From positions 41,625,745 through 41,689,744 of the forward strand of contig OX421962.1 of NCBI GenBank assembly GCA_949128115.1: 64,000 bases of DNA, given 5' to 3'. The position numbers were made by a program, and so were the translations under genes. The stretch's first letter is position 1. Every line of letters starts with the position of its first letter. The stretch is from Anaspis maculata (Eukaryota; Arthropoda; Insecta; Coleoptera; Scraptiidae). This document shows positions 2,318 to 54,914 of the stretch, in pieces. Below the pieces are notes generated by a model that worked only from the letters and a program-made list of their open reading frames with translations, ran no database searches and had not been told where the DNA came from.

Positions 2318-3227
2318 ACATTTAGCAGGGCCCAGGAAGTACCCTGACTGTGTACTACGAAGAGAAAAATGTACAAATAGCATCAGTCGCTGAGCAATGT
2401 AGGAACACATATGATCAGTGGTCTCAACTTCGTTTTCACAGCTGTGAATTGGGCATGTAATAATTTAGCAATAATCCACAATATGAAATTTGAAGTGATA
2501 TTTTTTCCTCTTTTACTTTGCATTCTTTGATTTCAAAACCTACCAGAACAAGCTACTTTGATTAGTGAGAAGTGTTGGAAGGTGTATCAGTAGCAACAAT
2601 ATAAGTACAGGATGTGAAAGAAAAAATACAGTTTTTCAAAATGACTGAGGCAGTTCCATTTCTTGCGCCTCAGTGTGATTTCGTCGCAAGTGATTATGAC
2701 CTTTCACTATCATAACCGAGAGGCGCGGTCAGGTGAGCCTGTGAATGTATCGACAATCTATGAGTGTATCGACCCTAAATTACAAATTTTTATGCAAGAA
2801 AGTTGTCTTTTTCGCCAGGCGGGCTAGAGCCAGGGGCTTTGTTGACGCCCCATAAGAACTAGGTAATTGACCTATCAAGTCAAAAATTTGGGTTAATTCA
2901 CTCTCTGTTCCAGGATCATGATCCATGATCCTGGCCGAAAGAAAACGGCTCAGGTCAGTGAGCAAACCGGCGATGCAGTTCTAGAATGACAATTTGACAA
3001 CACAGAACACAGCGTGGTTCAGGTAGTAGCTGATGTAGTTCAGGTGAAGGTTTCATGTCATACGGACACAACCACTAAGCTAACCTTCTTGTATCAAGAT
3101 GACATCAAACATTAAAATTCAGGAACACAAACAAAACTTGAATTCATTATGACATGCTGTGATTTTTTTAAGCTTGGAATGGATAGTCCTGTCTCGTATA
3201 ATGATTTATTAGATTGATTGATAGATG
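2318..3227. other. Intergenic DNA, no gene recognised
   Basis: No coding frame, RNA gene or repeat with a second copy in the window is recognised. A small palindrome GGATCATGATCC lies near 2912. Two near-repeats of a 'GTATCGAC' motif occur near 2748-2770. Confidence 0.4.
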
Positions 3228-3324
3228 GCGCCGCTTGGAGGACTCACATATTAGGAGTCCTCTTGGGTGTATATTACCATGAGTTCTCTGACTGCCACGG
3301 CATCGGATGGTTGAGCTGATCACG

Positions 3325-3372
3325 CTGCGCACTGATGAGCCCCCAGTAGGGGCGAAACACGTGTCTGTGCAG
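3325..3372 (+). ncRNA. Type I hammerhead self-cleaving ribozyme
   Basis: All conserved core positions are present in order. The stem I 5' strand is CTGCGCA (3325-3331). The core CTGATGA is 3332-3338. Stem II is 3339-3343 with 3349-3353 (five pairs, loop CAGTA). GAA is 3354-3356. Stem III is two pairs, A3357-T3364 and C3358-G3363, around ACGT. The cleavage-site nucleotide is C3365, and the stem I 3' strand TGTGCAG (3366-3372) pairs with all seven bases of the 5' strand (one G-U). The open end lies at stem I, which makes it type I. The very short stem III is what is known for hammerheads in Penelope-like elements, where dimers may be the active form. The self-complementary ACACGTGT fits such pairing. 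Activity is inferred, not shown. Confidence 0.85.
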
Positions 3373-3623
3373 TTGTTCGGTTCGATCGTCTGGTGTTGTG
3401 GTAGTCGGAGAGCTTTGTTTCATAAAAATGCGAGGTGCCCGCTATATGGCCCTAAGAGGCGCAATATTTATTTATATTCGCGTGTTTGTTGTCTATTTAT
3501 TATTATTTTTTCAAATTATGTTTTCCTCCTTAGCGGTCTGCATTGTCTATAGGAGTTTTTGCCTTTCATTATCACTTTAACAGACCCGGAAAAATTGCAA
3601 ATTGGACGACACAATCAGACAGA

Positions 3624-3693
3624 CATTCCCGGGAATCGAACCTGGAGCCTACATGACCGCAGACAGCCACTCAACCATCTGCGCCACGGGGCC
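3624..3693 (-). repeat. tRNA-like SINE head (A and B box)
   Basis: Read on the - strand it begins GGCCCCGTGGCGCAGATGG (A-box-like) and about 40 bases later has GGTTCGATTCC, a good B box of an internal RNA polymerase III promoter. The T stem contains a mismatch and no sound cloverleaf could be drawn. I therefore call it a tRNA-derived SINE head and not a functional tRNA gene. Confidence 0.55.
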
Positions 3694-3699
3694 GTATGA

Positions 3700-8348: not shown

Positions 8349-8412
8349 GTCACATGTGTAATTAACATGAGTCAGGAGAAATCTCGTGACAGCTCTTCGA
8401 AACCTCAAAATG

Positions 8413-8585
8413 TAAAGGTGCGTTCAGTCAGCTTATTTGGCCGCAAGTTTTAATTTTAGTCGTAAGCGCTGCATCGCTTATTGGCTGTTCTGAGGAGGCT
8501 GGTTCATAAAGAGCCAATGGGCGTCGCTGCGCTTGCGACTAAAATTAAAACTTGAGGCTAAATAAGCTGACTGGACGCCCCTTTA
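8413..8585. mobile_element. Foldback MITE of the 'cagcttattt' family
   Basis: A near-complete palindrome starting TAAAGGTGCGTTCAGTCAGC and ending with a diverged complement, TA on both sides. Related copies lie at 11662-11836 and, larger and SINE-interrupted, at 22460-22873 and 32130-32530. No coding potential. Confidence 0.75.
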
Positions 8586-11322
8586 CACGAGACTTCCAGC
8601 GTACTCGAATCACACTAGGGCTGAACGTATTTCACCCACCCTGAGTCTTGAATGTCAACAGAAGAATTGCTAAGAATGTTTTTGTCGATTTCTTAGAATT
8701 ATACTCAATAAAATGACGGAACTGAATCAATCAGACACGGACAATACCTAATAAAAATTTAATCAATTTCGGCAATTTGTCATTGACCACATTCAAGCTT
8801 GGCACTGTTCATAACCTAGGTGACTGCGTGACGTCCATTCCGATCGAGGTTGTGGTAATTCTGCTCGTGTAGAGTCGAGGCGTAGGTACCTACCCAATCT
8901 GGTTGCCAGATCCGTCGTGGTTCGTCCGTACACCCGCAATTCTACCGAACACCGGTAATCCCTAATTATCGGCTTTCCGCATCTCTGTTGCTACCACAAA
9001 ACATTAAAATTACAATTAGCTCACGACCTCGCAGAAAAATTGAGAACAATTCCCGTAATTGCATCCATCGGTATTTGAGTTTTACCGCCTAATGTAAGAA
9101 CCGGGGGAGTTGCATCAGCCCAACGCACGTCGTCCGTCTATGTTCTTCCAGTCATCTTTTTCTGTGAGCTATAGTAAATTTACGATGCATAGAAAAAAGC
9201 TAATGAACGAGGTTCAAATTGATGGTTGCACGAATGGCAAACAATGCAAATTCCCTGATCGATCATATGATAATTACAAAGCTCTTGTAATTAATTACAT
9301 AGATTAGAGGATATAACCGAGTTGATCGTGATTGTGTCAGCAATGGCATATCGGCATATCAATTACTTGAAACTGTTCTGAAAGCATGATTGGGGAGTTG
9401 CCATTGCCAAGTGCCAAGACGAGGCCAAACATCGATGTTCGAGTCTTGATTATTGGAACAATAAAACCAAAATACTATGATTAGGTACCAACACAAAATG
9501 AAAATAAGTACCTTAGTACCTATATAGTTACCTAAGGTACTAATAAACTAATAAGTACTAGTTGGTCCCTATACTTGATACTATTGATCTCAAAATTATA
9601 AATGAATAAGCTTCTAAGAACTTCCGATCTAAAGGAAAGGTAGAGGTAAGTAACATTTGAAGAGTTCCAAGAACTTGAACTTGACTGAGATTGATCAGGT
9701 TCCAGGTGCATATTATAATAAGTACTAAGATATATCTTTCTACCTACCTATAACACGCGGTTTGTGGAAAATAATTCGTGGTGTTACTCAAATGGAAGTT
9801 GGTGAAATCAAGGAATTATGAGTGAGTAGATATTGTGTAGGTATTTATTAGGAAGATATTAGGTAGCCATTTTTAAAAACACTTTGGAACACACTCCAGA
9901 GATTTTTTCAACATTTGAATGTATCTTGAATTTTTGTTTATCACACAGCAGGGTAGGGCGAGTCATCAATGAAAATTTAAATTTCTGCCGGTTCCTTTTG
10001 CTCGCAGCTTGTGCGCAGGTCTTCAAGTATACAAGCTCACTGGTTCAATTGGCTGTTTAACCGGAAGGGTTTTATCGATCGGGCTGGTTAGGGTTGGGGT
10101 TGGCGACGGCGCCAATATAGGTGAACCTGCGCCTCAAGCACCTCAGGTAAATGAGAATGGCTACACAGGAGAATCGTTTTATCTAATGCTCTTTATTGTT
10201 ACCAAATACCAAACAATACATATTGCCGGCACTGGAGCTAAAAAATATACTTACAGGTGTTTAACAAATACGGTTACAAACTTCTAGAGGAGATTCCTTA
10301 TAAAAAATTGACCAGGCAAGAATAGAACTCCAATGTCCTAAAATGCTCCGTTGAATATTTCCCTCATACGTCAAAAACGCGATAATTCGGACACAAATTT
10401 CAAGGATTATTAAGCGATAATCCGAAAGACCATATCGATAATTCAATCGATCTGTCATTGTTTGAACACCTACTGTCAAACAAACATGATGCGAGTCCAG
10501 TGTTAGCGTTGGACTCTGGACACTGTTCACTGTATGAGGATGCTCATGCTCAAGCGAGTACTCAAGGACCCAGAGGAATGTGCAAGAAATAGGCTACTTC
10601 GTTTGGGCAGGTGCGCATGCTTGACGGCTCTAAATTTTGTAAACTTTCGTACACCTGTCAGTTGAATGGCAACGCTGCATGCTCTGTCTAGCCGCCTGAC
10701 CAACAACTGGTTCCTGGCTGTCACTTCTATACATACCGTAAATGCATCTCTTCGTAGCTTCTTTGAACTTCCTTCTTGGTGCAGCCATTTTCAACAGGTT
10801 CTGTTCTTTCGATAAAACATGAGCAAAGGGAGTGTAGGTCAGGTAGAAACGAGAAGTGACCATAATTATTGTCACAAGTGACAGTTGGCGCCGATGTCTT
10901 GTTGTTTTCAGCGCTGTTGCCATTTTTGTTGTTCCTGAACTTCCACAAACGATCATTGAATTTAATTCCAATGAAACATTTCCTTTGAATATAAAAATGG
11001 TATCTAACATTCAACCACATTATTTGTGAAATTTTAGGTGCACTACAATATTTTTTTGTGTTAATTTTCAATATTGGTGTACGAAACTATGAAATTCGCG
11101 CCAGACATGCGCACTCAAAAAAACCGAAACGAAGGGACCTATTGAAACGATTTGGGATTGCGCATAGTCATGATGATTTCACACTTTTTACGTCAGCCTC
11201 TGGTTCTCTTTTCTGTTCTGCGGCTCAGTACAGTTAGGTGGCTATTCATGTATCATCAATTTTATTGTCGTTTGAAATAATATGTGAAGAATTTGTAAAA
11301 TGATTCGGGAAATATTCTTCCG
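8586..11322. other. Intergenic DNA, no gene recognised
   Basis: 2.7 kb without a recognisable gene. The longest open frames lie on the - strand between 10630 and 11071 (up to 126 codons). They overlap in different frames and match nothing I know, so I do not call them. There are scattered ACCTA/TAGGT tracts and partial palindromes around 9500-9550. Confidence 0.4.
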
Positions 11323-11472: not shown

Positions 11473-12798
11473 GAGTTTTTGAAATCGATTTTTTGACATA
11501 ACTCTTCAACCGTTTAACCGATTTTGTTAAAATTTGAACAAGGTTTACTAAAATAGGTCTCCTATCGAACAATACTAACGTGTTTGGAAAAAGAAATCAG
11601 GAGCGTAGATAATGGGGGGGGATTCATTTTCCACCCTATTTTGTATCAAAGGCCTAAAAATTAAAGGTGCGTTCAGTCAGCTTATTTAGCCGCAAGTTTT
11701 AATTTCAGTCGCAAGCGCAGCGACGCCCATTGGCTCTTGTGAACCAGCTTCCTCAGAACAGCCAATAAGCGATGCAGCGCTTAGATACGGCTAAAACTGG
11801 AACGGCGGCTAAATAAGCTGACTGAACTCACCTTTAGTTCCAAGAATAATGAACAGTTGATGAACTGCCATTTTTTGCTGAGAAACGAAAAGTTTTCAGA
11901 AAAAAAACAACTTGGGCTCGAAAAATGGCGATTTTGAGATGTTTTCCAAAATTTAAAACCCAAATATCTCAAAAATGAAGCTTCTTATCAAAATTTTGCA
12001 AGAGAAACTTTTTTCTTCAAATTGAACGCAGAATTCAAAAATTGGATTCATTCCCAAAAATAATTAGGGGGGGTGAAAAATGGGGGGAGGTGGAAAATGA
12101 GAACATCTCCCATTATCTACGGTCCTGACTTTTTTTGAAACGTTATTAAAGTACGGTCCGAGAGTTTTGGGAAATTTTTGAAGCTAATACCTTTTTCTGA
12201 ATAGTGTTACGTATTTCGCGTACGGGTTCGATTATAATTGAGACGATCGTTTCAAAACACACACCGTTGATTACTGCGTACTGCAATAAATACACGCCAA
12301 TAATTATCTACTTGGAATATCGCAGGTTACTACTTCGCTTTCTATTCGCAGTCTATCACTTTCAATTCATAACTGACTGTCGCGCTGAGGACGGTGCTGA
12401 TAATATGTCTCCGATTAATGTTCCCGAATTTTCTGACTGACCAAACATCTTTTATTGGTCGAGCTTGCGGTACATTAGGAAGAAGGAGCTTTGAGAAATT
12501 GATCCTGCTGTTGTCCAGAGAATGATGGAACATATATGGCAGAAGAACATTAAGATTCATCAAAAATGATGATCCATTATCCATATGCTGAATTTGAATT
12601 TGTTATTGTTGCATACGATGTTATAATTGAAACTATTCGAAAAAGTTATTAGCTTTTAAAACATTTCTCAAATTTTTCGGACCATACGTTTTTGTTCGAT
12701 ATACCTATAGAGACCTAATTCAGTGAACTTTGGTTTAAATTTGAACAAAATCGGTACAACGACTAAAAAGTTATGTCAAAAAATCGATTTTGAAAAGA
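11473..12798. mobile_element. TIR element with at least three nested foldbacks
   Basis: The outer arms (11473-11580 and about 12685-12798) are diverged inverted copies that share ATCGATTTTTTGACATAACT. Inside lies a second foldback, 11597-12128, with arms TCAGGAGCGTAGATAATGGG and complement. That one contains the TA-flanked MITE 11662-11836. A further foldback, about 12180-12655, starts near GCTAATACCTTTTTC. No transposase frame was found. Its right end touches the start of repeat copy A. Confidence 0.6.
11662..11836. mobile_element. Foldback MITE of the 'cagcttattt' family
   Basis: Same family as 8413-8585: it starts TAAAGGTGCGTTCAGTCAGC, ends in the complement, and has TA flanks. It is nested in the 11597-12128 foldback. 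The interior loop segment is inverted relative to the 8413 copy, as expected when a palindrome flips its loop. Confidence 0.7.
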
Positions 12799-16709: not shown

Positions 16710-18677
16710 TTACGACGTAGTATCAGGTTTTAGGTCCTTAGCATGCCACACACCGTCTGGTGAGCCATCCAACAAAGTTAGTCGGTACGTCCATGGCGAA
16801 ACCTTTTCAGCCACGATTCGGGGTCCCACGAACTTTGGTGCGAGCTTTGCTGTGAAGTAGCGTCCTGCATCAGAGTTCGCAAAATGCCTCCGCCAAACCT
16901 TATCACCAATCTCGTAAGACACGTCACGCCGTCGTAGATCGTAGACCCGTTTGCTTTTCTCGTGTGCCTTGGCCAATCTGGTTCTAACCTTTTTATAGAT
17001 TTGCGCGAATAATTCTTCGTTCGGAACCGGCACTTCACAATCCGGATCACTCAGCTTGGCCGCCATCTCATGATCTCTTCCTTCAACACACATTTGCCGT
17101 CCAAAATTAATGAAGTATGGCGTCTGACCAGTGCTTTCTCCTCGCGATGTACGCATGGCGCAGGCTACTTTTTGCAGATAAGACTCCCATTCACGGTGGT
17201 TGTCCTTCACAAAGCTGGACAGCATCTGCTTGAGAGTTCGGTGTTGTCTCTCAACGGCGTTGGCCTGAGGATGGTAATTCGCAGTCTTCCGGATCTCCAC
17301 TCCATACTTCTTCAGCAACGCCCCAAATTCCCCACTTACAAACTGCCTGCCATTGTCGCATACGAGTCTTTGCGGGACACCAAACAAAAGGAAAACATTA
17401 TCCTCGAGGATCTTTACGATGGTCTTGGCATTGGCGGTCCGAAGCGGGAAGAATAAAGAAAATTTACTGAAGTAATCAGATACCGACAGGATGTGTATGT
17501 TTCCTGACTTGGATTTTGGAAGAGGTCCAACCAGATCTACAGAAATTACTTGCCAAGGCATGGTCACATACACGCGACCGCACATAAGTCCAGCCGGCGG
17601 CTTCTGCTCAGGCTTCTGCTCGTGACAGATCTGACACCTCTTCACAAAGTCAGTTATATCCGCTGCCATCGACGGCCAGTAGTACTTCAGTGCAACTCGG
17701 TGGTAAGTACGTGATACTCCTCCGTGACCTGACGTTGGCAATTCGTGGGACGATTTCAAGATATCAAGTCGGTGATTTCGAGGGACCACTATTCTCCAGC
17801 TCCGCATGTATCCTGTCATCGAGTCAGGATTCTTACAATTCTTGTAAAGAATACCATCTTGGACTCGCCATAAAGGAAAATTGATTGGATCATTAGTGAC
17901 CCTACCCACCATCGCCAAGTACCAGTCATCGTCCACGTCCACATTGGAAAAGTCAATCGCAGAAATCTTCGGAACACTACGGCTGAGAGCGCCAGGGACT
18001 ACATTGTCTTTTCCCTTTCGGTGTATCACATCGAAGTCATATTGTTGTAACCTGACGCTCCATCTCGCAAGTCGACCGTTTGGGTCCCGCAGATTATTCA
18101 GCCACTGTAGAGCAAAGTGATCGGTTATGACAGTGAAATGCGTAGCTTCGATATATGGGCGCAGCTTTTCTATCGACCACACCAAGGCCAAGCACTCTTT
18201 TTCTGTAGCGCTGTACTTCCTCTCGCTTGCGCTCAGAGATCTGCTGATATAGCATATGACATGCTCTCCGTCTTCCGCTTGCTGAGTCAGAACAGCGCCG
18301 AGCCCGTAATCACTGGCGTCAGTCTGCACCTGGAACGGCCGGGAAAAGTCTGGACAAGTTATCACAGGTGTGGTGATCAGGCATTCCTTCAGGGTTCTCA
18401 AAGCCTGCTCGCAACCCAACGTCCACTCGAACTTCACATCTTTCTTCAAGAGCTTGGTGATTGGAGCGACGACCGTAGAGAAATTCGGGATGAACCGCCG
18501 ATACCAGCTGGCCATTCCAAGTACTCGCCGAACTTCTTTGGTGGTTTTCGGTGTGGGGACTTCGATAATCGCTTCGACCTTTCCGGGATCCACGTGCAGT
18601 CCACGACCATCAACAATGTATCCCAAATAGCGAAGTTCGGGACGACACAGGTGGCATTTCCCTCGACCGACCATCAA
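16710..18677 (-). CDS. pol: Gypsy pol fragment: RT end, RNase H, integrase
   Basis: An uninterrupted frame of 655 codons, part of a retrotransposon polyprotein. Residues 1-80 are the distal part of reverse transcriptase (YLGYIVDGRGLHVDP, then WYRRFIPNFS); the catalytic YxDD block is missing, so the 5' end is a truncation point and not a natural start. Residues 115-235 are RNase H (D120 in QTDAS, E161, D186 in ITDH). Residues 311-351 are the integrase HHCC zinc finger (H311, H318, C348, C351). Residues 375-500 are the integrase core, with D381, D441 (CDNGRQF) and E476 (AVERQHR). Residues 560-655 hold a C-terminal GPY/F-like part. With no stop codons, the fragment looks fairly recent. It cannot be mobile by itself. 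Confidence 0.93.
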   Translation of the reverse strand: MMVGRGKCHLCRPELRYLGYIVDGRGLHVDPGKVEAIIEVPTPKTTKEVRRVLGMASWYRRFIPNFSTVVAPITKLLKKDVKFEWTLGCEQALRTLKECLITTPVITCPDFSRPFQVQTDASDYGLGAVLTQQAEDGEHVICYISRSLSASERKYSATEKECLALVWSIEKLRPYIEATHFTVITDHFALQWLNNLRDPNGRLARWSVRLQQYDFDVIHRKGKDNVVPGALSRSVPKISAIDFSNVDVDDDWYLAMVGRVTNDPINFPLWRVQDGILYKNCKNPDSMTGYMRSWRIVVPRNHRLDILKSSHELPTSGHGGVSRTYHRVALKYYWPSMAADITDFVKRCQICHEQKPEQKPPAGLMCGRVYVTMPWQVISVDLVGPLPKSKSGNIHILSVSDYFSKFSLFFPLRTANAKTIVKILEDNVFLLFGVPQRLVCDNGRQFVSGEFGALLKKYGVEIRKTANYHPQANAVERQHRTLKQMLSSFVKDNHREWESYLQKVACAMRTSRGESTGQTPYFINFGRQMCVEGRDHEMAAKLSDPDCEVPVPNEELFAQIYKKVRTRLAKAHEKSKRVYDLRRRDVSYEIGDKVWRRHFANSDAGRYFTAKLAPKFVGPRIVAEKVSPWTYRLTLLDGSPDGVWHAKDLKPDTTS

Positions 18678-28994: not shown

Positions 28995-29672
28995 CAGAGT
29001 AGAGAAGTTGTCGGGGCGCTGCAGTTCCTCACCACTGGAACTAGGCCAGACATCGCCTACGCTGTTAGTGTTGCAGCATCGGCTGTTAGTAAACCTACAC
29101 GGAGAGATTGGACCTTAGTAAAACGAATCCTGAGATACTTGAAAGGAACAATGAATCAGTGTATCACATATAGACGGGATTGCAAGATGGAAGGAATCGA
29201 AGCCTATAGCGATGCTGATTTTGCGAATGACAAGATTGATCGGAAGTCGCGGACCGGAATCTTGTGCAAGTACGCTGGTGGTGCAGTAAGCTGGAAGAGC
29301 CAGAAGCAAGCATGTGTGACGCTTTCCACGTGTGAAGCTGAATATGTAGCTGCAAGCGAGGCTGCCAAGCAAGTCGTGTGGTTTCGAAAACTCTATACCG
29401 AACTGACTGGCACAGAGTTCACTCCTGTCCTTCATGTTGACAACCAAGGTGCAATCCACCTGGCACATAATCCAGTGTTTCACAAACGAAGCAAGCATAT
29501 TGATGTTCGATATCACTTTGTTCGAGAACAGATCAGTAATGGAATACTTGCAGTGAAGCATATCCCTGGCGAGCTGCAGATTGCAGATATGCTCACAAAA
29601 GCATTGTCATCATTTAGACTGAAGAAACTTCTTAGTAATTGTGGTGTCCAAATTGAGGGAGTGTTAAAGTAA
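28995..29672 (+). CDS. pol: Copia pol fragment: RT end and RNase H
   Basis: The open frame runs from just after the stop at 28992 to a TAA inside the 3' LTR, 225 codons. It enters pol in GALQFLTTGTRPDIAYAV, the conserved segment after the reverse transcriptase catalytic core. It then follows the Copia RNase H: YSDADFA (D73), STCEAEYVAASEA (E114/E116), VDNQGAI (D149) and KHIDVRYHF (D170), ending in QIADMLTKAL. These are the expected acidic catalytic residues. There is no natural start codon at the front of the frame, because the frame is what remains after an internal deletion joined the 5' leader to the 3' end of pol. Whether it is translated is unknown. Confidence 0.92.
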   Translation, partial: QSREVVGALQFLTTGTRPDIAYAVSVAASAVSKPTRRDWTLVKRILRYLKGTMNQCITYRRDCKMEGIEAYSDADFANDKIDRKSRTGILCKYAGGAVSWKSQKQACVTLSTCEAEYVAASEAAKQVVWFRKLYTELTGTEFTPVLHVDNQGAIHLAHNPVFHKRSKHIDVRYHFVREQISNGILAVKHIPGELQIADMLTKALSSFRLKKLLSNCGVQIEGVLK

Positions 29673-43369: not shown

Positions 43370-46300
43370 ATGTCTCCTCCGAACAGCGTCCCGCCGGGGA
43401 GCGAAGAAGCGACCCATCTCCAAGTTCCTACGCCCTCACGGAAGGACGACCATCATCATTGCGAAACATCGGATAACGAGGAGGCGCAAGCTTTGAAGTC
43501 TGAAGAGGAAGACGCGGTGGTCGAAGACGATGAGGCTGCCGAGGTCGTGGTGCCTCCGGACGGAGGATGGGGCTGGGTGGTCGTCTTCGCCTCGTTCATG
43601 TGCAACATGATCGTCGATGGCATCATCTTTTCGTTTGGCAGCTTCCTGCATCCGATTGCCATCACGTTCAACGTCTCGGAAGCACATGTGGCCCTTGTCG
43701 GATCCCTCATGTCCGGATTTTATCTTATCGTGGGACCTTTCGCCAGCGCCTTAGCCAATCGGTACGGATTCCGCTTGGTTGCCATTGTGGGCAGCGTCAT
43801 GGGAGCTGCCGCATTCGCCTTATCTTACTTCGCCACCAGTGTTCAGTACTTATGCATCACTTTTGGAGTTCTAGGTGGTAAGTTTCAATCATTCAATCTG
43901 ATCTTCTCTAATGACACTGATCAATTATCTTGCCGCAATCATAATCAATAATTCTATCCAGCGAGCCCTCAAATTCTATATACAATTCCTAATGAATTCT
44001 CAAAAACTTAAAACTAGAAAATAGATATATAGATATAGCCTCTAAACTATAGCTTCGAGAATTATTACAAGAATTTAAGAATTGTGCTTGAGAAACAAGT
44101 AAAAAGATTGCGAACTTGTGGAAATGATCACGAAGTCTATCCATACCTAGGTAATAGGCACCTACAATGCAAGATTAATATCAAAAGATTATGGTGTCAC
44201 TTTCCAATAAGTATCCAGATAAATTTGGTTTTTGGAATAAAAAAAAATAGTTTGGAGAGTACCTACGTACTTGACAACACCTGAAAAACGACTAGATACT
44301 TTATTACTTATTTTTAGTAAAACAAACGTTTTCTTTCTCGGCAGGTATTGGATTTGGCTTCATTTACGTGCCGGCTGTGATAACTGTGGGCTTCTATTTC
44401 GAGAGATGGAGGGCACTAGCCACTGGTATCGGAGTCTGCGGTTCTGGAATAGGGACATTCCTTTTCGCCCCCATCAGTTCGAGCATGATCAAAAATTTGG
44501 GTTGGAGAACTGCTTTATTATGTCAAGGAGGCATAGTCATCACTTGTGTTCTATTTGGCACTTTATATAGGTAAGCGTGGCTTTAAATAGCTTTTTTACG
44601 GTCGATCAGTCTTTCGGTTGAAAAACTGTGAGAAACTTTGTGATAGCCCAAATTCTTATGTTCAGAAGAAAATCAACAAATTTAATAAAATAACAAAATA
44701 ACTGGTATCAACTGAGGCGTATTTGACAAGTTGAGTCATACTGAGTTTACACCTTGAGATGTGCAGATAAATTGATCGCACAGGTTAGATTAGGATTCAA
44801 AATTTGCCATAACTTGGGTATAACTATAATTAAATTATTATTATTTACTAGTACCTACCTAGAGATATTTATCCACCAAAAAGTAATTGCCATGGATGAA
44901 CTTACCTGGTCCAGAAACAGAGAAAATCGGTTGTGTCACCCCAAAACTTCCCCGGCGAGTATAGCAAGGAATGGACGGAAATTTCCTTCGGGTGGGGAGT
45001 TAGAATTTGAGAAAAAGATTGAAGAATTGAGATATTTTTTCTAATAAGGGACTCATTTTGAGCTCCATCATTTGAAACTGGTCTCGATAAGTTGAAAATA
45101 ATTTGCAGAAAATTGATAATTTGAATTTTCCGGGAAAACCTCAAATCTTTTTCCAAATCATCTTATTATGAAGATCGTCAATTACAGCTTCACTTTAAGC
45201 TCCATCATTCAAGTCCGGTTCCAATATAACCCAGGCCTGTTTTACATTCTCAACAGAGAAATTCCCAGGAAATTAGGAAGAAAATTATTGGAAAATGTTA
45301 AAGAGCCAGTTACCTCTTCTTAAAAAAAATTGGTGAAAATCTGTTTATGGGATAAAAAGTTGGAAAATTTGTAGTTTTTCCAGATGAAAACTCGGAAACC
45401 GTGATAGTGGGAGCGGTACGCAAAAGCATACCGCATTTTGGAGTGCAGGAACGAAATTTTGCATGGGCGTACTTTATACCGAGATAAGCGATTTGACCCG
45501 CAGCACTCGATATTTTGTCCCTTAGGAGGCCAATGGGGGCCCTCCAAATTTTCAAGATGCAAGAACTTTCACAAAATGATCATCGAGTATCGTCATGTAT
45601 GTCATAAGTGAAGCTTACAGGTCTATTGGAAATGTTTTCATCAATTGTCGTCGTGTCCGATTCATTCTTCACACTTGAAAAAAAAATTCTTTCGCAGAGG
45701 TCAAAAAAACTGTTTTTATTTTTTCTGCTGTGCAAGGAAACGATAAATTTATATCTTTTGTTGCGTTCCCAATTAAATCGCGTTCCGTAAGCCCAAATCT
45801 GAAGACTATTTTTTCGCAATATCATTTTCCCAAGAAGAGGTGACCTCTTCAGTATACCTTTTTCAACAGCATTTTTTTCAATGTTCCTACTGGATAAGAC
45901 TGTCAATTTTCGCAGATATGAGAAGCTTGAACTCTTTTCTTAGTAATTTCCATGCAACATGGCTTCAAAACGCATAAGAGAGCCCTAAAACTTTTTTTTT
46001 CTGCTGGGCTGTCAAATTTTTGGCATGTTGATTTTGTAGTAGGGGAGACGCGCAAATAAATGAGATCTAGTCCAGGCGAATAAGTTCTACCGGAAAATAT
46101 ACCTACTAATACGTAACGATTCTGCGTTTTGTTGTACCACAATAAAACACGGCATGGAAGAATATTTTTTGTTAAAACCAAATCGCCTGCGCCTGCAGCC
46201 TGGATTGAATATTGGTTCGCGTCTCTCCTACTATAAAATCAAAATATCGTTAGTTGGACGGCCCAGCAGAAAAAAATTCTTTTTGGGCTGCCTTGAGCGT

Positions 46301-49300
46301 TTTAGAGTCATGATGAGTCAGATGACTTTTGACAGATTTGAGCGGTCATAGGTCATAGCAATGTTATGAAGTTTGTCAAACTGCGACACTAGTCAAAATT
46401 TGAAAATATTCACTCATACATATATCCCATACACTTTCTATTTTAAGTGACTAATTGAGGCAAAAATAAAGTGACAAGCTGAGGGGCTACGACTACGGCT
46501 GATGGCACCTGCAAAGTTTTGGAGCGAAACTTTCAGCGGGTATCGGCTGTTTTCTCCCAGCGCTCCAGCTTGTCACTTTATTTTTGCTCAAAAAAGTCAT
46601 TCTATTGAAAATAGAAAGTGTATGGGATATAATAATCAATTTTACGGCTTTGTTCATTAGAGCAAGCTATGGACAAAATTTCGCAAGTAGAAATTTCCGA
46701 GACTGCGCAGCGAAAGCAGGGAAACGTTAGTCCCCATACAGTGGAAGTTGAGTGCTCGGCAACGGACATCGTCTCTACCATGGTTGGCGGCTTATCATCT
46801 TCCATGTTTGAAGCCTCTGGGTAGTGGGCATTTCATTCCATTTGTCTCCGGTAGAGACAATGGCCGTTATCGACCACACTGCGAAGAACTCCAAGGAAAC
46901 TCACTATTCCTGGCGTATTCTCGAAAATTTTCACTGACGCGTGCATGACGCCCCGACACGGTGACAGGTGCCACATTATTGGCTGCGTTTCTTTTATCAT
47001 TTGAACTGAGAATCCTCACTTCAATTGACCTTTCCAATTTTAGGAGATAGAAAGTACATGGTTTTTCGAGGTCACCTTTGACGTTTTGACGTTTATGACG
47101 TTTGGACGTTTCGTTTCTGACTTTTGCGGGAATTTTGAATCGGTTAGCTATACTGTTCCCATTATCATGTGGGGAAAGTCACTAGAGCCCATAAGGGAGT
47201 TTTTAATGGACGAAGTAATAGAGTTTTTTCGTAGTAAGATGCACGTGTCTGGTGCAGCGTGATCCCTGGTGGTGCTGGTGCAGCCACACTTCCATCAAGT
47301 TTGGGTCTTTCCTGAACCGGTGCATGGTGATGCCGGGTGTATTCGTCTTATTCTCGCACTCGCATAGAGCGACACAACACCCTTGAACCATTTCTGTAAG
47401 TCTTCTCAGTTTTCCACTACATATAACACACTTATTGGTAAGAACGAGGGTAAGAACAAGTGAAATCATGAAATCCATGCTGAAATCAAATAAATACACG
47501 ACAGACCGCTTGTCAGATTCGAAAAATTTCCCATTGTCAGAAACGAAATGTCATATCTCAAGAAACATAGGACGCTTTCCAATAACTGCGACAAGACGGA
47601 TACACAATGTCAAAGTGCACTTGCCAGCTCAATTCTAAACTCAGCCTCGCCAATGTTTCGATTGTGTCGACATGTGGTGCTATTACTGCTATTGGAACGC
47701 TAGCTGTGTCAAATTGTGTCCATATGTGTCGAATTGTGTCCTTATACGCCTTATTGGGAAGCGCCCAATGACCTCGATTAACCGTATCTTATACGCATGA
47801 CGTCACAGTAAAGAGAGACAACGGAAAATTGGAGACCTCAATTGCTAGTTGTGTCTCTCTCCCTCTCATGCAATTCTCGCTTTTTCTCTCTCTAACTGAG
47901 GCTAAATTATCTGAGATTTCGTGTAAAAGGAATGCAGCTATTATAGCACATTACATGTAGACAACTAGCTGCCAAGACGTTTACCATAAAGTCGACATTG
48001 TACCATCCGTAACAACCATGTACTTGGTAACAACCCAACACAGTTTTTCAATAGCTATGAAAAAACCCGTCGTCTAAACTTTATGTTTTCGATTGAAACT
48101 GAGCCGTGTACAAATCAATTTAACTACAACATTTTTATCATTGCAGGCCGCTGAAACCAACTAAAGTTAAAGATATCAAAGACGACGGAGAAGAAAAACC
48201 AAAGCTCAAAATGGATCCCAACGAACTGCCTCCGCAAACTAAACTCAAAATGGAAAAGGCCCTCGAATCCATGAACAGTGCCAGCTACCAAAGCCAAAAC
48301 TCGATCCAACGCATGCTCGGAGTCAACAACAACTCAAACTATCCACGACTTTCCGACGTCTACCATACCATCAGCATTCCGCAGCCCAGAGCCTCCGATA
48401 TTTATAACAACTACGAGAAAAGACGTTCCGTCCCCTTCATAAGCAACGAAGACAAACCGAAAGAAGTCAAAGAACGCCTCCTCCAAGAACACGACAAGAG
48501 TGCCACCATAGTTCCCAAGTCCGTTCAACGCGACACTCTAGAACCGGAAGTCAACAGACCCATGTACAGGGATGACATTTTCTTCAGCGCCAGCTTGACC
48601 AGACTACCTCAGTACACTTCTAAAACGTCCATAGCTTATAATTTGTCAGTGACGAGGCTGCCGACCAAAAACGACATCGAGGAAGAAAAGAAGCATTCGT
48701 GTAAAATATGCCCGGAGGCTGTGAAAAGGACGTTGGCGACTATGCTGGATTTTAGTTTGCTGAAATCACCGTCTTTCCTTCTGCTGGCGTTCGGAGGTTT
48801 TTTCACGATGATGGGATTCTATGTGCCGTTCATGTACTTGACTGACCGTGCCAAGATCAGCGGCATGGATGAAAGCTCTGCGATATTCTTGGTGTCTGCC
48901 ATAGGAATTGCCAACACTATTGGAAGGGTGCTTTGTGGAGTTTTAAGCTCATTCCCAGGGGTCAATGCGTTATTCGTGACCAATGCGGCGTTAACTATAG
49001 GTGGATTGGCCACAATACTCAGCGGGTTTTCCATGGGACTCGAATTTCAATTTACTTACACGGCTGTTTTCGGTCTGTCCATTTGTAAGTATAATTTTAT
49101 AAATTTTACGTAACAGTTATCGCTTGGTGATAACATTTTAGTTGTTTAAAATGTTCGCGAAAGATCAAAGTTATGAATTTGGGAGTAAACAGTAAACATG
49201 ACATGATATTTTGATTCCTTGAAAATAAGGAATTAATAAAAATAAGAACGAGTTTTACCGGTCTAATCTAATCACATGTCTTTCTTTTTCCAGCATGTTT

Positions 49301-49577
49301 CGCGTCGCTAAGGTCGATCATAGTCGTCGATCTTTTGGGCTTAGAAAAACTGACGAATGCCTTTGGACTGCTTTTACTATTCCAAGGAGTGGCTGCTGCC
49401 ATTGGAGCTCCACTTGCAGGTGCCTTCAAAGTCGCCACAGGAAGTTACGACGCTTCCTTTTACTTATCAGGAGGTCTGATTTTGGCCTCAGCAATCATGT
49501 GCTATCCATTGAATTACATAAGCAGGAGGGAAATAGAAAAAAGCAACAAGCTGAACGACAGATCAGTACCAGTTTAA
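43370..49577 (+). CDS. SLC16 family (monocarboxylate transporter-like) protein, 4 coding exons
   Basis: A 12-helix major facilitator plasma-membrane carrier. MCT relatives move monocarboxylates or other small organic acids; the substrate here is unknown. Coding exons are 43370-43877, 44345-44570, 48147-49084 and 49294-49577. All introns are GT-AG and the reading frame is kept (phases 1, 2, 1), giving 651 aa. The SLC16 signature PDGGWGWVV lies at residues 63-71, after an acidic N-terminus (residues 32-60). FYFERWRALATG (186-197) is the second family motif. A long cytosolic loop (about 246-450) contains NRPMYRDDIFFSASL (381-395) and CKICPEAV just before helix 7. The second half (helices 7-12) follows. 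The start is chosen at the only ATG after the acceptor at 43355 that keeps the frame; the acceptor implies an upstream non-coding exon. A poly(A) signal lies at 50126. It is complete and looks functional. Confidence 0.95.
45962..46308. mobile_element. Foldback MITE in intron 2
   Basis: Inverted arms: CTGCTGGGCTGTC near 46001 against GACGGCCCAGCAG near 46258, and GTAGTAGGGGAGACGCG near 46037 against CGCGTCTCTCCTACTAT near 46218. The outermost parts are diverged. No coding potential. Confidence 0.65.
46421..46630. mobile_element. Foldback MITE in intron 2
   Basis: Starts TATATCCCATACACTTTC and ends with the exact complement. The inner arms AATAAAGTGACAAGCT / AGCTTGTCACTTTATT lie inside. The borders are TA. 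Confidence 0.75.
47022..47844. mobile_element. THAP-bearing repeat, copy 2, in intron 2
   Basis: About 820 bp, nearly identical to 20737-21559, with the same inverted ends (CAATTGACCTTTCCAATTTT and complement). It lies in an unrelated context, inside a host intron, so it is an independently inserted mobile unit and not part of the 19.4-kb element only. The insertion is oriented so that its THAP frame is antisense to the host gene. Confidence 0.75.
47203..47391 (-). pseudogene. THAP zinc-finger N-terminus in the repeat
   Basis: On the - strand an ATG at 47391, preceded by TTACAG, opens 62 codons starting MVQGCCVALCE and continuing PGITMHRFRKDPNLMEVWL. This fits the THAP start: a C-x(4)-type Cys pair, then the 'FHRFPKDPxxxxxW' block. 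The later CxxH pair is degenerate and the frame ends soon after. It is a partial DNA-binding domain from a transposase-like gene. Copy 1 of the repeat has lost the frame by one base. Confidence 0.6.
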
Positions 49578-50131
49578 TGCATAATTAATAGTTTTATACG
49601 TTCCTATTTCAATTGGTGCTACGTCACAGAGCTTATATTATAAATATTTAAATTATTAAGCCGCACGAATGTAAATATTGTGCTAGCAGCAATAATAATA
49701 CTCATCGAATTTTGAGCTGTATAGACAATAGTTTTTTACAGGGTTCCTTTTTTTTTTCTTAGATTTTACAACATAACGATCAAAAGACTGATACCAGTAA
49801 GGTTAATAAGGCGAGCAAATGCAGGTTCTGTATATTTTCCCGCATTGTGTGATTTGAATCCTTGTTGTTACAATAATTATAATTGACTAATTATTATTGA
49901 GCAACTATAAATTATGGAAAATTATGGAATTTCCTTAATTGAACTGCATTTTAATGTTGCAGGTACCTACATAATTTATTTGATTGTTGGACATTCCAAT
50001 CGTTTTAAATTAATTACAAAATTTTGTAAGTACTAGAAGTGTTTGAATTATAGTACGAACTATATATAGCTATAAACCAAAATATTATAGGTAAACTATT
50101 TTATATATTGTTTTTTCTCAGTGAAAATAAA
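49578..50131 (+). terminator. 3' UTR and poly(A) signal of the first SLC16 gene
   Basis: AT-rich DNA after the TAA stop. AATAAA at 50126-50131 is the clearest cleavage signal, giving a 3' UTR of about 570 bases. Confidence 0.55.
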
Positions 50132-51330
50132 GATTTGTATAATTTTTTTAAATCGTCTTTAACTTATAACCTGTCATTTTTGGAACTCAACTTGCACGAA
50201 CCTAATTTCTAGAACACGGATACTTGCATAAAATCACTTATTCACTATTCACTTATAAATGTTGTGCACGACTGACATAATATCCGATCATAAAAAATAC
50301 CGTTTAATAATCTGTCTTTCATCTAACTGACGACAAAAGTATGAAATAACTTTTAAAGCCAAAAACATGTTGACTTTTAGTGACGTCATCCCGCGTGAAA
50401 TCTTTTTTGGTTGCAAGGTTTACCGCCCTGTGCCTGTGACGCAACCTTGAGTAATGAGTACTACCTTGATTTATCGCTGAATTGAATTTTGATAGCTGCA
50501 CAATGAGAACATCACATTTTGCTTTCCACGTGAAGAATTTTCCGCTTCTACGATGAACGCAGGGGTTGTGGAGCCCAACGCAATGACCTGACGCATTTGG
50601 CACGAATCGAGAGTGGATTAGGGTGCTGACACTGCTGACTGAACAGTAAATGCTCCAAAGACGCGTCATCAGTGACATTTATCGAACCTGACATTGGCTT
50701 TGGCAAGATATTCGCTAGATGTAACCCAGTGAGTGAGGAGGAACTGCGATTTTGGATTGACGAATTTTTCAGAAGTGAGTAAAAAGAAAACTGGCATGAG
50801 AACAAAGCCCTTCCCGTACTTCACTATTTACTCGTAAGTATGTCAAAAGATTACGATGGCATATACTGTCATGGTCAGTAATTAGAAATACCCTGAAAGA
50901 AAGGATCGCACTAGTAGAATAGTGATTGTCACAATTTTAATCAAAGACCTATTTTAGTATCGAAGGTTAAAACTGAATCACCATCGTCTTCAAATGCGAT
51001 AGGTGTAGGGTTGATAGATAAGATTCAATTATCACAAGAACTATCTCGATAATGTCAAATTATAATAATATAACGCAAGATTTTTCCGATATTCATCGGA
51101 GACTCCGACTCGAGGGTAGCCAAGAAACCCAGAGACTTCAACGTGGGGATAAGTCACAAACGCGTGCAAGTGGCGGAGGAGCCGTTCAAGACCGTGCCGG
51201 ATCCATAATGGATTTATTTAGGGCTCTCCCAATTGAACGAACTACATAAATTATATATGTGGGTACATATTTGTATTTGATTATTTGAAATTGTTTATAT
51301 TTAGTTGACCCATCTTCTTCCCATTCAACA
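50132..51330. other. Intergenic DNA between the transporter genes
   Basis: No known gene. A + strand frame of 65 codons (51052-51249, MSNYNNITQDFSDIHRRL...) is polar and somewhat GC-richer than its surroundings. It has no recognisable domain, and I do not call it a gene. Confidence 0.4.
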
Positions 51331-51344
51331 CATAGCCCAAAAAA

Positions 51345-52455
51345 AAAAAGGTTTTGACCTCAAAAAAAACTGTAGTCGTGAAAATCACAGGTTTTGTTCA
51401 GATTTTTATGCTCTTTCCAAATTTTTGGGTCTCAGCAAAATCCAAATGGAGGCTTTATTTCTTCGGGGACTGCAAATGTCCGGGACGATGAAAAATTTCA
51501 TAGTTCTGATAGAATATTTCGATTTTTCCGTCAAATGCATATGATACAGGAAAGATAGCAAAAAAATCGCGAATACCTTGGAAAAAATATGATGGACGTC
51601 CTGAAAATTTGATATTCTGTTCAAAATTGAATGTTCTGCTACATATCTAAGATTGCGAAAAATCGCACTCCGGGGTTTCAAGTTATTGGAGAGGAGGTAA
51701 AAGAATATAACTCAGAATGGAGGAAATGAACCCCGTCCATCCATTGGATGCAAAAAAGTCGTAATTCGCGTAGGTCGTAAGTCGAAGCTCGGCTAGGTGG
51801 TTCTTTTTGTTTTTCTGGTCATATAGAACCTTGTCGATCACGACAAGTTTGTTATCTTTCCCGACTAAATTCAGTCTGCTGAACTCGAATCCATCAAGGT
51901 GTAAATTTGGATGGAAACAAGTTCGAATAAGTTGACTTGAAAAAACTTGTTCTCTTCTTCGACAATCGGTTTTGGTGATTCTTTTTACAATTTTCCCTGT
52001 ACTAAATGTACCGTATGATCAAAAACTTTCCTCCTCTAGGCAGGCTGTGGCCTGGCCAAAATCAGCCTCGTTTGCCTGCCAATGGCCAGACCACAGCCTA
52101 CCTAGAGGAGGAAAGTTTTTGATCATACGGTACTTCACGGAAAAAATCGAAATATCTAACAGTACTCAGCAATTTCTCATCGTGTTTGGTTCAGAACTGT
52201 CCAATTGTGTATTCTCAATATTTTACAGCCTCCAGAAAACATGGTATATTTGAAGTCTGATTAGGGCGTCATTTGAAGATGTTCAAAATTTTCGCTTTTT
52301 AAACTTTTGACAGCTCTAGCAAAAAATCTTCCATTGGGATTTTCCTGAAACTCAAAAATTTGAGAAGAGCACAAAATTCTGATCAAAATCTGCGTGATTT
52401 TCACGGACGGCTACAGTATTTTTTTTGAGTTTGGAGTGATATTTCAGCTAAAATT
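51345..52455. mobile_element. 1.1-kb foldback element upstream of the second SLC16 gene
   Basis: The arms about 51345-51560 and 52140-52455 are inverted and diverged: GTGAAAATCACAGGTTTTG near 51377 against the complement near 52395, and ATATTTCGATTTTTCCG near 51512 against the complement near 52138. A second palindrome is nested at 52009-52132. It ends about 220 bp before the next ATG, so it abuts the promoter. Confidence 0.65.
52009..52132. mobile_element. Foldback MITE with TA flanks
   Basis: TACCGTATGATCAAAAAC at the left and its exact complement at the right, arms about 55 bp. The TACCGTATG terminus and GGCAGGCTGTG word are shared with 6396-6581. Confidence 0.8.
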
Positions 52456-52674
52456 CCTGGACAAACACTGTACTTGTTTTTGTACCTTGCTTGAGGCTGG
52501 AGTATGATTTGAGTAATTCGTCGTCAAAATTTGAAAACACTCTGTATAATATCACAGTTTTCCACTGTCCCGTTGTCTTGGCTTGTCTAATTTTGACGTA
52601 TTCTGTGTCAGTTGAAAACGCTCGTATTTCTGCTTTTTCCAATCATATAATCATATACAACCAAAAACCTCAAT

Positions 52675-54914
52675 ATGTCTCGAATGAACATTATGAGCAA
52701 AACCTCCACTGGAGCTACTCAAAGCAGCATGAACGTGGAAAGCATCTCAATCAGTAGGAGTATCAGAAGTTCAAAAAGTACAAGAGCTTTAGAAGACCTC
52801 GCCGATACACATATAGCCATAGCCCCAGATGGTGGATGGGGATGGGTGGTACTTTCTGCTGCATTCTTGTGTAATTTTATGGCTGACGGTGTCATATATC
52901 CCTTTTCTGCTTTCGCTGATGATATCGCTGGCGAATTTCAGGTCGAAGTGCCTGATGTCTCGATGGCAAGCTCGTTAATGTCTGGATTTTATTATCTCGG
53001 TGGTAAGTTTATCTTGTGATTCTTCGCAACTGAAACCTACTACGATCAAAATTTCTAGGGCCAGTTGTATGCGCGCTGATCAACCGCTACGGCTTTCGAA
53101 TCATTGGAATAATAGGTGGAATAACCTCAGCTCTTGGCATATTCGTCAGTTCGCGTATGAAGGTGCTACCAGCCTTTATTTCAATTTATGGCATGCTGGG
53201 CGGATTAGGATTTGGAATGACTTACGCAGCTTCTGTAGTGGTTGTTGGATTTTACTTCAGCCGATGGCGAGCCCTTGCTACGTCAATAATGGCATGCGGT
53301 TCAGGAGTTGGTATAATTGTTATGCCGCTACTTGTTCAACATGTAATGAATGCACTTAATTGGCGGACACAGTTCATAATATTAGCATCTATGTGCTTAG
53401 TAACCGCTATTCTTCCTTTTGTCTATCGTCCCCTACATACCGTAAAGGTCACCATCGCCGACAAGCAACCGACTGCTCTATCCAAACAATTCAGTGAAGC
53501 TTTATCAGGAACCAGTGCTACGAGCGAAACTAAGAGCAAAGAGAAATTCATCCAAAAAATGAAGAAATATCATAATGAAGAATTTCCTAAAGCATCCGAA
53601 TTGCGCATGGCTTCTACGATATTCGTTAAGGTACCCAAAACGGACAGCAGTGAATCTGTTTTAATAGGAGGAGAATCTATATCCACACTAAGGAGGCCGA
53701 CCATCACTGTTAAAGATGATCAATCGAATATATTGAGTGTACAGACGATGGAAGCAGCGTTGAATTGTTGTACACGTTCGTGTAGACGTTGCCAAAGATG
53801 CTGGAGGTGCGGCAAGGCTGCGCCAACCAACAGACCAATGTACAGAGAAGATATTCTCTACGGTGCTTCGCTCGCCCTGCTTGAACCGTACAGAACTGAG
53901 AAAACGGAAATGGAAAGAGTTCAAAGCATGCCACTGTCACATGAGCTCTCGTACGTTTCCAATATGGAAGGAAGCATCCGCGAAGTAAGGAACATGTACA
54001 CCTAATTTTTTTTGTGAGTGAAAAATCAGAATATATAGTTTCCAGCTGGATGTTGAGGCAATCGGCTTCAGTATGTCCGTTACCAGAGCAGCTACCCAAC
54101 GTGACATAGAGGAACAATTCAAATGCAAAGTGTGTCCTGAAGCTGTTCTCAGAACTTTATCTACAATGCTGGACTTCTCGCTGATAAAATCGCCTGCCTT
54201 TTTATGCATAGGGTTCAGCGGGTTTTTCACAAATCTGGGCCTTTTGATACCATACATGTACGTCAATAAACTGGGCGAACAGGCGAACTTGTCAGTATCA
54301 GATTCGAAATATCTACTGCCAATTTTGGGAATCGCAAATTTGATCGGGCGCATTTTGTGCGGATTGCTTTCGGTCATACCTCGCTGCAACGTTGTTGCCA
54401 TTTCCTACATTAGCATTTGTTTATGTGGAATTGCTACGTCGATTTCATGTCTCTGCTACAGTTTGCTGACCTTTTACTTGTATGTCACTGCATTCGGGCT
54501 AACTATCGGTAATTTCGCGAAGCAGAGGAAATGAAAATACGTTTAACTTTCTCTTTTATTTTTATTCCAGCTGCATTTGCTACATTGCGAGCACCAATTA
54601 TAGTAGAAGTGCTGGGAATTGAGAAGTTGACAAATGCATTGGGAGTCATAATGTTGCTTCATGGAGTCGCTGCTTTGTTGGGACTACCACTTGCTTCGGC
54701 AATCATAAAAGCTCAAAATTATCGATATGATGGAGCTTTTATTTTCGCTGGTGTTTGTTTATTGATCAGCGGGCTCATGCTCGTAATAGTCAAGCCGCTT
54801 TCCCGTTGGGAAATGAAGAGGCTGCAACAGAAACTAGGGAAAGAAACTAAGAATGATCCCAAGAAAAGACTACGAAAAGCGAAAAAACGAAGTAGAAATA
54901 AAATAAAAGTTTAA
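52675..54914 (+). CDS. SLC16 family (monocarboxylate transporter-like) protein, second paralogue
   Basis: A 12-helix major facilitator carrier, a tandem paralogue of the gene at 43370. Coding exons are 52675-53002, 53059-53984, 54046-54508 and 54571-54914 (GT-AG, phases 1, 0, 1), giving 686 aa. The introns are only 56, 61 and 62 bp. PDGGWGWVV is at residues 51-59 and FYFSRWRALATS at 174-185. The long cytosolic loop has a cysteine cluster (CCTRSCRRCQRCWRC, 346-360) absent from the first paralogue, then NRPMYREDILYGASL. CKVCPEAV precedes helix 7, and the C-terminus is strongly basic (KKRLRKAKKRSRNK). If intron 2 is retained, translation stops 6 codons later. The start chosen is the first Met in frame; Met4 and Met7 are alternatives. 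The substrate is unknown. Confidence 0.95.

Follow-up and report, generated by a model that had tools for sequence, protein, structure and literature searches.

Paired 3′ ends in head-to-head retrozyme insertions of Anaspis maculata point to probable mobilisation by a Penelope-like enzyme

Is the hammerhead-like motif at positions 3325-3372 of this window (the whole stretch of 64,000 nucleotides of Anaspis maculata DNA that was analysed) a genuine ribozyme, what kind of element carries it, and by which route did that element spread? A first-pass annotation had described a complete type I hammerhead with seven paired stem I positions, one of them G-U, and a minimal, self-complementary stem III, carried by a ribozyme-bearing retroposon of ~470 bp, and had noted that such hammerheads occur in Penelope-like elements and SINE-like retroposons. 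On inspection of the letters all parts of a full hammerhead are legible, that is the core, stems I to III and the cleavage site C3365, and a long hairpin is predicted beneath them.

3325..3331, + strand: stem I, 5′ strand (letters; helix covariation)
3332..3338, + strand: CTGATGA hammerhead core (letters)
3339..3353, + strand: stem II GCCCC/GGGGC with loop CAGTA (letters; covariation set)
3354..3365, + strand: GAAA, stem III ACACGTGT and predicted cleavage site C3365 (letters; Rfam alignment)
3366..3372, + strand: stem I, 3′ strand (letters)
3281..3415, + strand: long hairpin of ~40 pairs with the hammerhead at its tip (predicted fold)

The description as a complete type I hammerhead was correct: core and three stems are in place, stem I is open, and the topology is that of the Rfam family RF00163 (Hammerhead_1). 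The seven pairs between 3325-3331 and 3366-3372, including the G-U, are borne out by the letters. Alignment to the Rfam type I model, proposed by the annotation as a check, is favourable in that it spans 3326-3371 and the entire model (E=0.0011 on 1.1 kb), and unfavourable in that the window copy, at 25.6 bits, falls short of the gathering score of 34 bits; because of this shortfall an automatic scan of the 64-kb window at the Rfam gathering threshold reports no hammerhead. The palindrome in stem III is present but not special, as the aligned Rfam consensus is also palindromic there, and a palindromic tetraloop in stem III has been described for axolotl retrozymes (PMC7229834). The window copy resembles Hammerhead_1 in core, topology and palindromic stem III, and differs from it in its low score and in sitting on a hairpin of ~40 pairs. 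Neither tandem copies nor a second hammerhead were found within the 64-kb window.

The element around the ribozyme is shorter than had been proposed. Repetition elsewhere in the genome is restricted to 3218-3494 of this region, and these 277 bp are the part homologous to a repeat unit, here called R1, which is 418 bp long when complete; 3218-3492 matches that unit at 98.6% in alignment.

3218..3494, + strand: R1 retrozyme fragment, 5′-truncated, ending at site B, 129 nt past the cut (repeat alignments)
3204..3211, no strand: candidate left target-site duplication ATTTATTA, 8 bp
3212..3217, no strand: filler of 6 nt separating duplication and element (end mapping)
3495..3502, no strand: candidate right target-site duplication ATTTATTA, 8 bp
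3419..3429, + strand: position of site A, 54-64 nt past the cut, an outer end in R1 head-to-head insertions and not the end of the window copy
3223..3234, + strand: AGATGGCGCCGC, common to R1 and the otherwise diverged R3

R1 is a small genomic parasite of recent multiplication and is dispersed, with at least 44 matches in the genome (40 of 1934 candidates scored); its tandem units are spaced 418-425 bp, and the unit has a GC content of 49% and a longest ATG frame of 52 aa over three laps. Judged by sequence, R1 fits the metazoan retrozymes in being short, devoid of an ORF, present in tandem copies and equipped with a type I hammerhead, and the window element is probably a 5′-truncated, dead-end fragment of it, as part of an explanation that we consider likely as a whole. 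The annotation was right to see a ribozyme-bearing dispersed retroelement, of which 312 exact hammerhead cores are present; the family, however, consists of tandem and head-to-head arrays of a 418-bp retrozyme and is not a tRNA-type SINE. At 8 bp the candidate duplication of the window copy is short, which counts against this explanation: 4.4% of mismatched flank pairs share as many. The sequence AGATGGCGCCGC lies upstream of the hammerhead in R1 and recurs at position 301 of the R3 unit; it resembles a YY1-type promoter motif, and to call it promoter-like is a guess.

A tRNA-derived SINE was considered and rejected, as ARAGORN finds no tRNA in the window; letters resembling Pol III boxes near 3308 and 3380 (by eye) fall inside the hairpin strands. 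Several further features lie in the window. On the minus strand, 3620-3695 reads like a tRNA (cgtggcgcagatggttgagtgg ... ggttcgattcccggg) and may represent the head of a tRNA-derived SINE; ARAGORN reports no tRNA there. Nested inverted repeats at 1094-2315, with further pairs inside and outside and with 113-nt arms that are 96% complementary (1139-1251/2032-2144), resemble a fold-back or MITE-type element, and modules of 77-87 bp repeated in direct and inverted orientation at 8407-8587 and 11656-11839 are probably related short transposons. Translations read from the frames at 16710-18677 (−) and 29139-29672 (+) resemble a Gypsy-type pol and a Copia-type RNase H end, respectively, and exons at 43370-54534 (+) resemble a monocarboxylate-transporter (MFS) gene, for which two protein-search matches carry PF07690.

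The annotation had called for a search for other copies of the hammerhead, and these are plentiful: the 757.8-Mb genome contains 312 exact copies of the 34-nt stretch made up of core, stem II and stem III (174 on the plus and 138 on the minus strand) and 0 copies of the reversed sequence, and a pattern for the sister families R2 and R3 occurs 101 times. Among 118,498 first-look candidates in the genome, 74 were scored against Rfam, a set that does not include the window copy, and 73 of these pass the cut-off with 39-51 bits. Covariation was assessed on 30 distinct hammerheads from 26 loci (the window and 25 others), two of the 30 being R1; because the pattern used to choose the set holds most of the core, GAAA and stem III constant, change is visible only in stems I and II. 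Within these limits both sides have changed in six of the eight pairs of stem I and in one of the four pairs of stem II (7 of 16 pairs overall), standard pairs occupy 89.4% of the pair cells compared with at most 44.1% after sliding one strand, and the covariation score is reached by 0 of 500 shuffles, a result that is not a probability because the 30 sequences are related. The outermost stem I pair is broken in 24 of the 30, and core, stem II and stem III are kept exactly in 78 of 91 copies of a 181-bp segment. We conclude that this is a genuine hammerhead whose sequence has a functional appearance. One locus (L076) shows decay at the cleavage site, where the C reads T in the R1 units at 990 and 1410 and is retained at 570.

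The R3 unit is 406 bp long, has a GC content of 52% and differs from R1 over most of its sequence, yet the hammerhead of R1, R2 and R3 is probably common by descent. The stretch 3280-3420 folds in RNAfold with an MFE of -88.5 kcal/mol (z -10.2), and the corresponding stretches of R2 and R3 give z values of -6.4 and -2.8. Stem II is retained in these predicted folds and the hammerhead's stem III appears in none of them; its absence from the best RNAfold structure of the window hairpin counts against the explanation proposed here. Folded as a circle, the R1 unit reaches -164.0 kcal/mol compared with -126.6 +/- 6.6 for 60 shuffles. On the plus strand of locus L008, at ~770-830, lies another form of the hammerhead, in which the stem III region is longer (cagtacagtacagtatc) and stem I differs.

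The arrangement of the copies is more telling than their number. Among 200 listed places, 100 for each pattern out of 312 (R1) and 101 (R2/R3), neighbours in opposite orientation less than 1.5 kb apart (22 R1 and 12 R2/R3 pairs) face away from each other in every case, that is 34 of 34 are head-to-head and 0 tail-to-tail. The outer ends of R1 were mapped in three samples comprising 50 insertions: the first, with the window segment as query, gave 21 insertions, ten of them head-to-head with both ends visible; the second gave 17 loci, seven of them head-to-head and fully visible, and is less end-biased because its query was the part of the unit that is missing from the window copy; the third consists of 12 loci picked for two exact hammerheads facing apart, which supply 12 of the 29 head-to-head insertions. 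Insertions with one end beyond the fetched stretch (L021, L069, L070 and L081 of R1, all four head-to-head, and L102 and L128 of R2/R3) were excluded from the end counts.

Each of the 29 R1 head-to-head insertions with both ends visible has site A on one flank and site B on the other, and none has two equal ends. Site A lies 54-64 nt past the cut (median 58) and site B 124-136 nt past it (median 130); L118 aligns only to +107 and was counted as B, as its further letters match site B by eye after a deletion. R1 insertions in one orientation (17) end at A in six cases and at B in 11, while their 5′ ends are variable; if ends were chosen independently with pA=6/17, the uniform A/B outcome would have a probability of 1.4e-10. 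The sister families follow the same pattern less strictly. R3 ends at about +61 to +69 (+55 in L095) and +123 to +135, and 12 of the 16 R2/R3 head-to-head insertions with both ends visible combine A and B (L004, L105, L090, L091, L095, L103 and L122-L127), with L095 scored as A+B despite its short A end and the two R2 cases, L004 and L105, read by eye. The remaining four speak against a Penelope-like origin: L008, L096 and L129 look A/A and L006 has one undefined end. L008 carries an inverted flank duplication of ~50 bp, L096 is old, and a clear target duplication is absent from all four as well as from L004, L105 and L095. It is important to point out that the similar end distances in the three families are not independent observations, because the hammerhead is probably shared by descent.

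Target-site duplications accompany these ends. Duplications of at least 10 bp were found in 26 of 33 insertions, compared with 0.85% of mismatched flank pairs in that same search; a search of slightly wider flanks, to which this control does not belong, gave 25 duplications of 12 or 13 bp for 36 head-to-head insertions (28 R1, 8 R3), and the duplication of L019 lies beyond the range of the former search and is visible in the end alignment. The duplications show a cut in each target strand at an A/T-rich site, with a stagger of mostly 12-13 bp. With B oriented to the right, the left edge prefers A-N|T and the right edge G|TT; these edges are roughly mirror images, which suggests two like subunits cutting both strands. 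In a comparison of 91 copies from 38 insertions, copies inside one insertion differ by 0.43% on average (139 pairs; maximum 4.7%, in L072) and opposite arms by 0.50% (51 pairs), compared with 2.76% for copies from different insertions (3956 pairs, some identical); both arms therefore probably derive from one RNA or one source locus. The homogeneity of the arrays could alternatively reflect copying of an already homogeneous tandem transcript, or later conversion.

Which enzyme leaves such insertions? A genome search for GIY-YIG domains found at least 29 matches (150 of 378 candidates scored), and four of ten frames tested match both RT and GIY-YIG, with the RT above the Pfam cut-off in two of them. 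Five places of Penelope-like elements (PLEs) with long frames were examined: PLE-1 (three places, ~98% alike across long stretches, one with an 848-aa frame) and PLE-2 (two places, ~98% alike) are both head-to-head. All four PLE insertions with readable ends (L047, L061, L065 and L063, from both families) are head-to-head with paired ends, one reaching 37-50 nt further than the other; L040, whose ends did not resolve, was excluded. By eye, PLE-2 contains a hammerhead-like motif: CTGATGA is followed by an additional base, GAGG/CCTC stand one base out of register, and GAAAC and ACAATTGT complete it. The ends of PLE-2 in L063 lie +57 (A) and +95 (B) past the expected cut. PLE-1 has a relic-like GAAAC stretch lacking CTGATGA, with A at +65 from the presumed cut, to which we give little weight. 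A strict hammerhead pattern was absent from the 29 GIY-YIG loci, and no Rfam hammerhead appeared at E 3 in 20 of them.

The published record on PLEs, as far as the consulted parts of these papers go, describes duplications of 9-10 bp and an inverted head-to-head copy in which one inverted end carries a 31-bp tail (PMC3846280). With a purified PLE, cDNA begins at two adjacent internal RNA sites, both target strands are cut and extended, and the hammerhead is cleaved only with the protein present (PMC11167929). Two of the findings reported there count against a simple transfer to R1: the start sites are the same on either strand, and the ribozyme is dispensable for insertion in vitro, mutants still being inserted (PMC11167929). 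The strict A/B pairing of R1 is thus either an addition to the purified-PLE result or a difference from it, because in that system the start sites are indifferent to the strand.

Taken together, the A/B ends and duplications of R1, the paired ends of the PLEs and the hammerhead-like motif of PLE-2 argue that a PLE-type enzyme probably mobilises R1 retrozymes; this is the best reading and one that we hold with some confidence, and the Penelope-like link drawn by the first-pass annotation is better founded than its reader could know. What counts against it is that the R1 unit has no blastn similarity at E 1 to the 29 GIY-YIG loci, so that none of these can be named as its partner. Two-site priming is perhaps twin-primed reverse transcription of one RNA. 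In the proposed cycle, by analogy with published retrozymes, transcripts of tandem units would self-cleave after the hammerhead C and be ligated to circles, and a Penelope-like RT-endonuclease would bind the RNA 3′ of the hammerhead. The enzyme would cut both target strands with the stagger seen in the duplications; one 3′ end would prime at site A (~58 nt past the cut) and the other at site B (~130 nt), the two ends seen paired in the insertions, presumably on the same RNA molecule. Each cDNA may circle its template several times before the two join head-to-head, the structure seen in the insertions. The window copy would be a one-orientation insertion begun at site B and halted early.

A more specific version, in which one enzyme dimer works on one ribozyme-made circle, the cut strands prime at different fixed sites, the cDNAs lap repeatedly and join head-to-head, and the hammerhead sets the first start, is offered tentatively, as a proposal to which we give somewhat less than even chances. 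If it is true, the hammerhead positions the first start (median +58 in R1, +57 in PLE-2), and retrozymes are to PLEs as SINEs are to LINEs. Compatible with PLE mobilisation, and somewhat unlikely in our estimate, is a template that is not a circle but an unprocessed multi-unit transcript, with the hammerhead acting elsewhere, in transcript release or silencing. Homogeneous arrays would give homogeneous copies in that case too, and for the purified PLE unprocessed RNA is considered the main substrate and ribozyme mutants inserted (PMC11167929); however, published animal retrozymes pile up as monomer circles, plus linear forms (PMC7229834), and the ribozyme is exact in 78 of 91 R1 copies.

LINEs also yield head-to-head inversions, 5′ truncation and target duplications, features that would be shared by a SINE-like element for which a LINE supplied ordinary target-primed reverse transcription and twin priming. 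Such an origin is nevertheless improbable: the mapped ends show no long poly-A or simple-repeat tail, the window contains no tRNA according to ARAGORN, and the use of two fixed 3′ ends, with a different one on either flank of 29 of 29 R1 insertions, is PLE-like. If the repeats were satellite-like DNA whose spread and inversion took place at the DNA level, by unequal exchange or rolling-circle DNA transposition, the hammerhead would be a passenger; this would account for the homogeneous tandem arrays and the inverted flank duplication of ~50 bp at L008, and animal hammerhead satellites are known (PMC7229834); we regard this as very improbable in view of the dispersed short insertions with 12-13 bp target duplications, the two fixed 3′ ends with variable 5′ ends and the stem I covariation between families. 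A chance or decayed hammerhead lacking any family function, to which the sub-threshold Rfam score of the window copy might have pointed, is refuted as to chance by 312 exact copies and compensatory changes across families and deserves next to no credence.

How does R1 compare with known systems? Metazoan non-LTR retrozymes (Cervera and de la Pena 2020) are described as units of ~150-450 bp with a type I hammerhead, in tandem as well as dispersed, non-coding, with GC below 50% and target duplications above 4 bp, lacking LTRs, primer-binding site and polypurine tract; they are expressed as linear and circular RNA, the circles are self-paired by prediction, and PLEs co-occur (PMC7229834). R1, with its 418-bp unit, type I hammerhead, tandem and dispersed copies, duplications of mostly 12-13 bp, non-coding sequence and GC of 49%, falls within this description, whereas R3, at 52%, is slightly outside in GC. 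Non-coding tandem units, multiple copies, duplications and a self-paired predicted circle are thus common to R1 and the published retrozymes. The head-to-head inversion, the two alternating 3′ ends and the fixed distance from cut to end lack a counterpart in the portions of that account drawn on here; neither 'inverted' nor 'head-to-head' appears anywhere in its main text, and no description of paired retrozyme ends was found in the titles and abstract openings of a mostly open-access literature.

Animal retrozymes, their circles and a suggested mobilisation by PLEs are already published (PMC7229834, PMC7761336, PMC8969392, in the parts consulted), the last idea being based on shared hammerheads, tandem copies and co-occurrence (PMC7229834, PMC7761336). 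The novelty lies in the insertion structure; copying of retrozymes by PLEs was suspected earlier, and no earlier demonstration was found. Together the A/B ends and duplications serve as a fingerprint of the junctions that lends itself to counting in any genome and makes the PLE question testable with a purified PLE enzyme, and the use of different RNA ends by the two flanks, in 29 of 29 R1 head-to-head insertions fully in view, constrains the mechanism. As far as the available descriptions of GIY-YIG PLEs reach, R1 resembles them in the head-to-head inverted copy, the short duplication and the tail on one end, and their two internal RT start sites downstream of the hammerhead are like the R1 ends. 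R1 is unlike them in having a unit that codes for no protein, and in the interval between its two ends, ~72 nt compared with 30-40 nt for published PLE tails and 38 nt for PLE-2.
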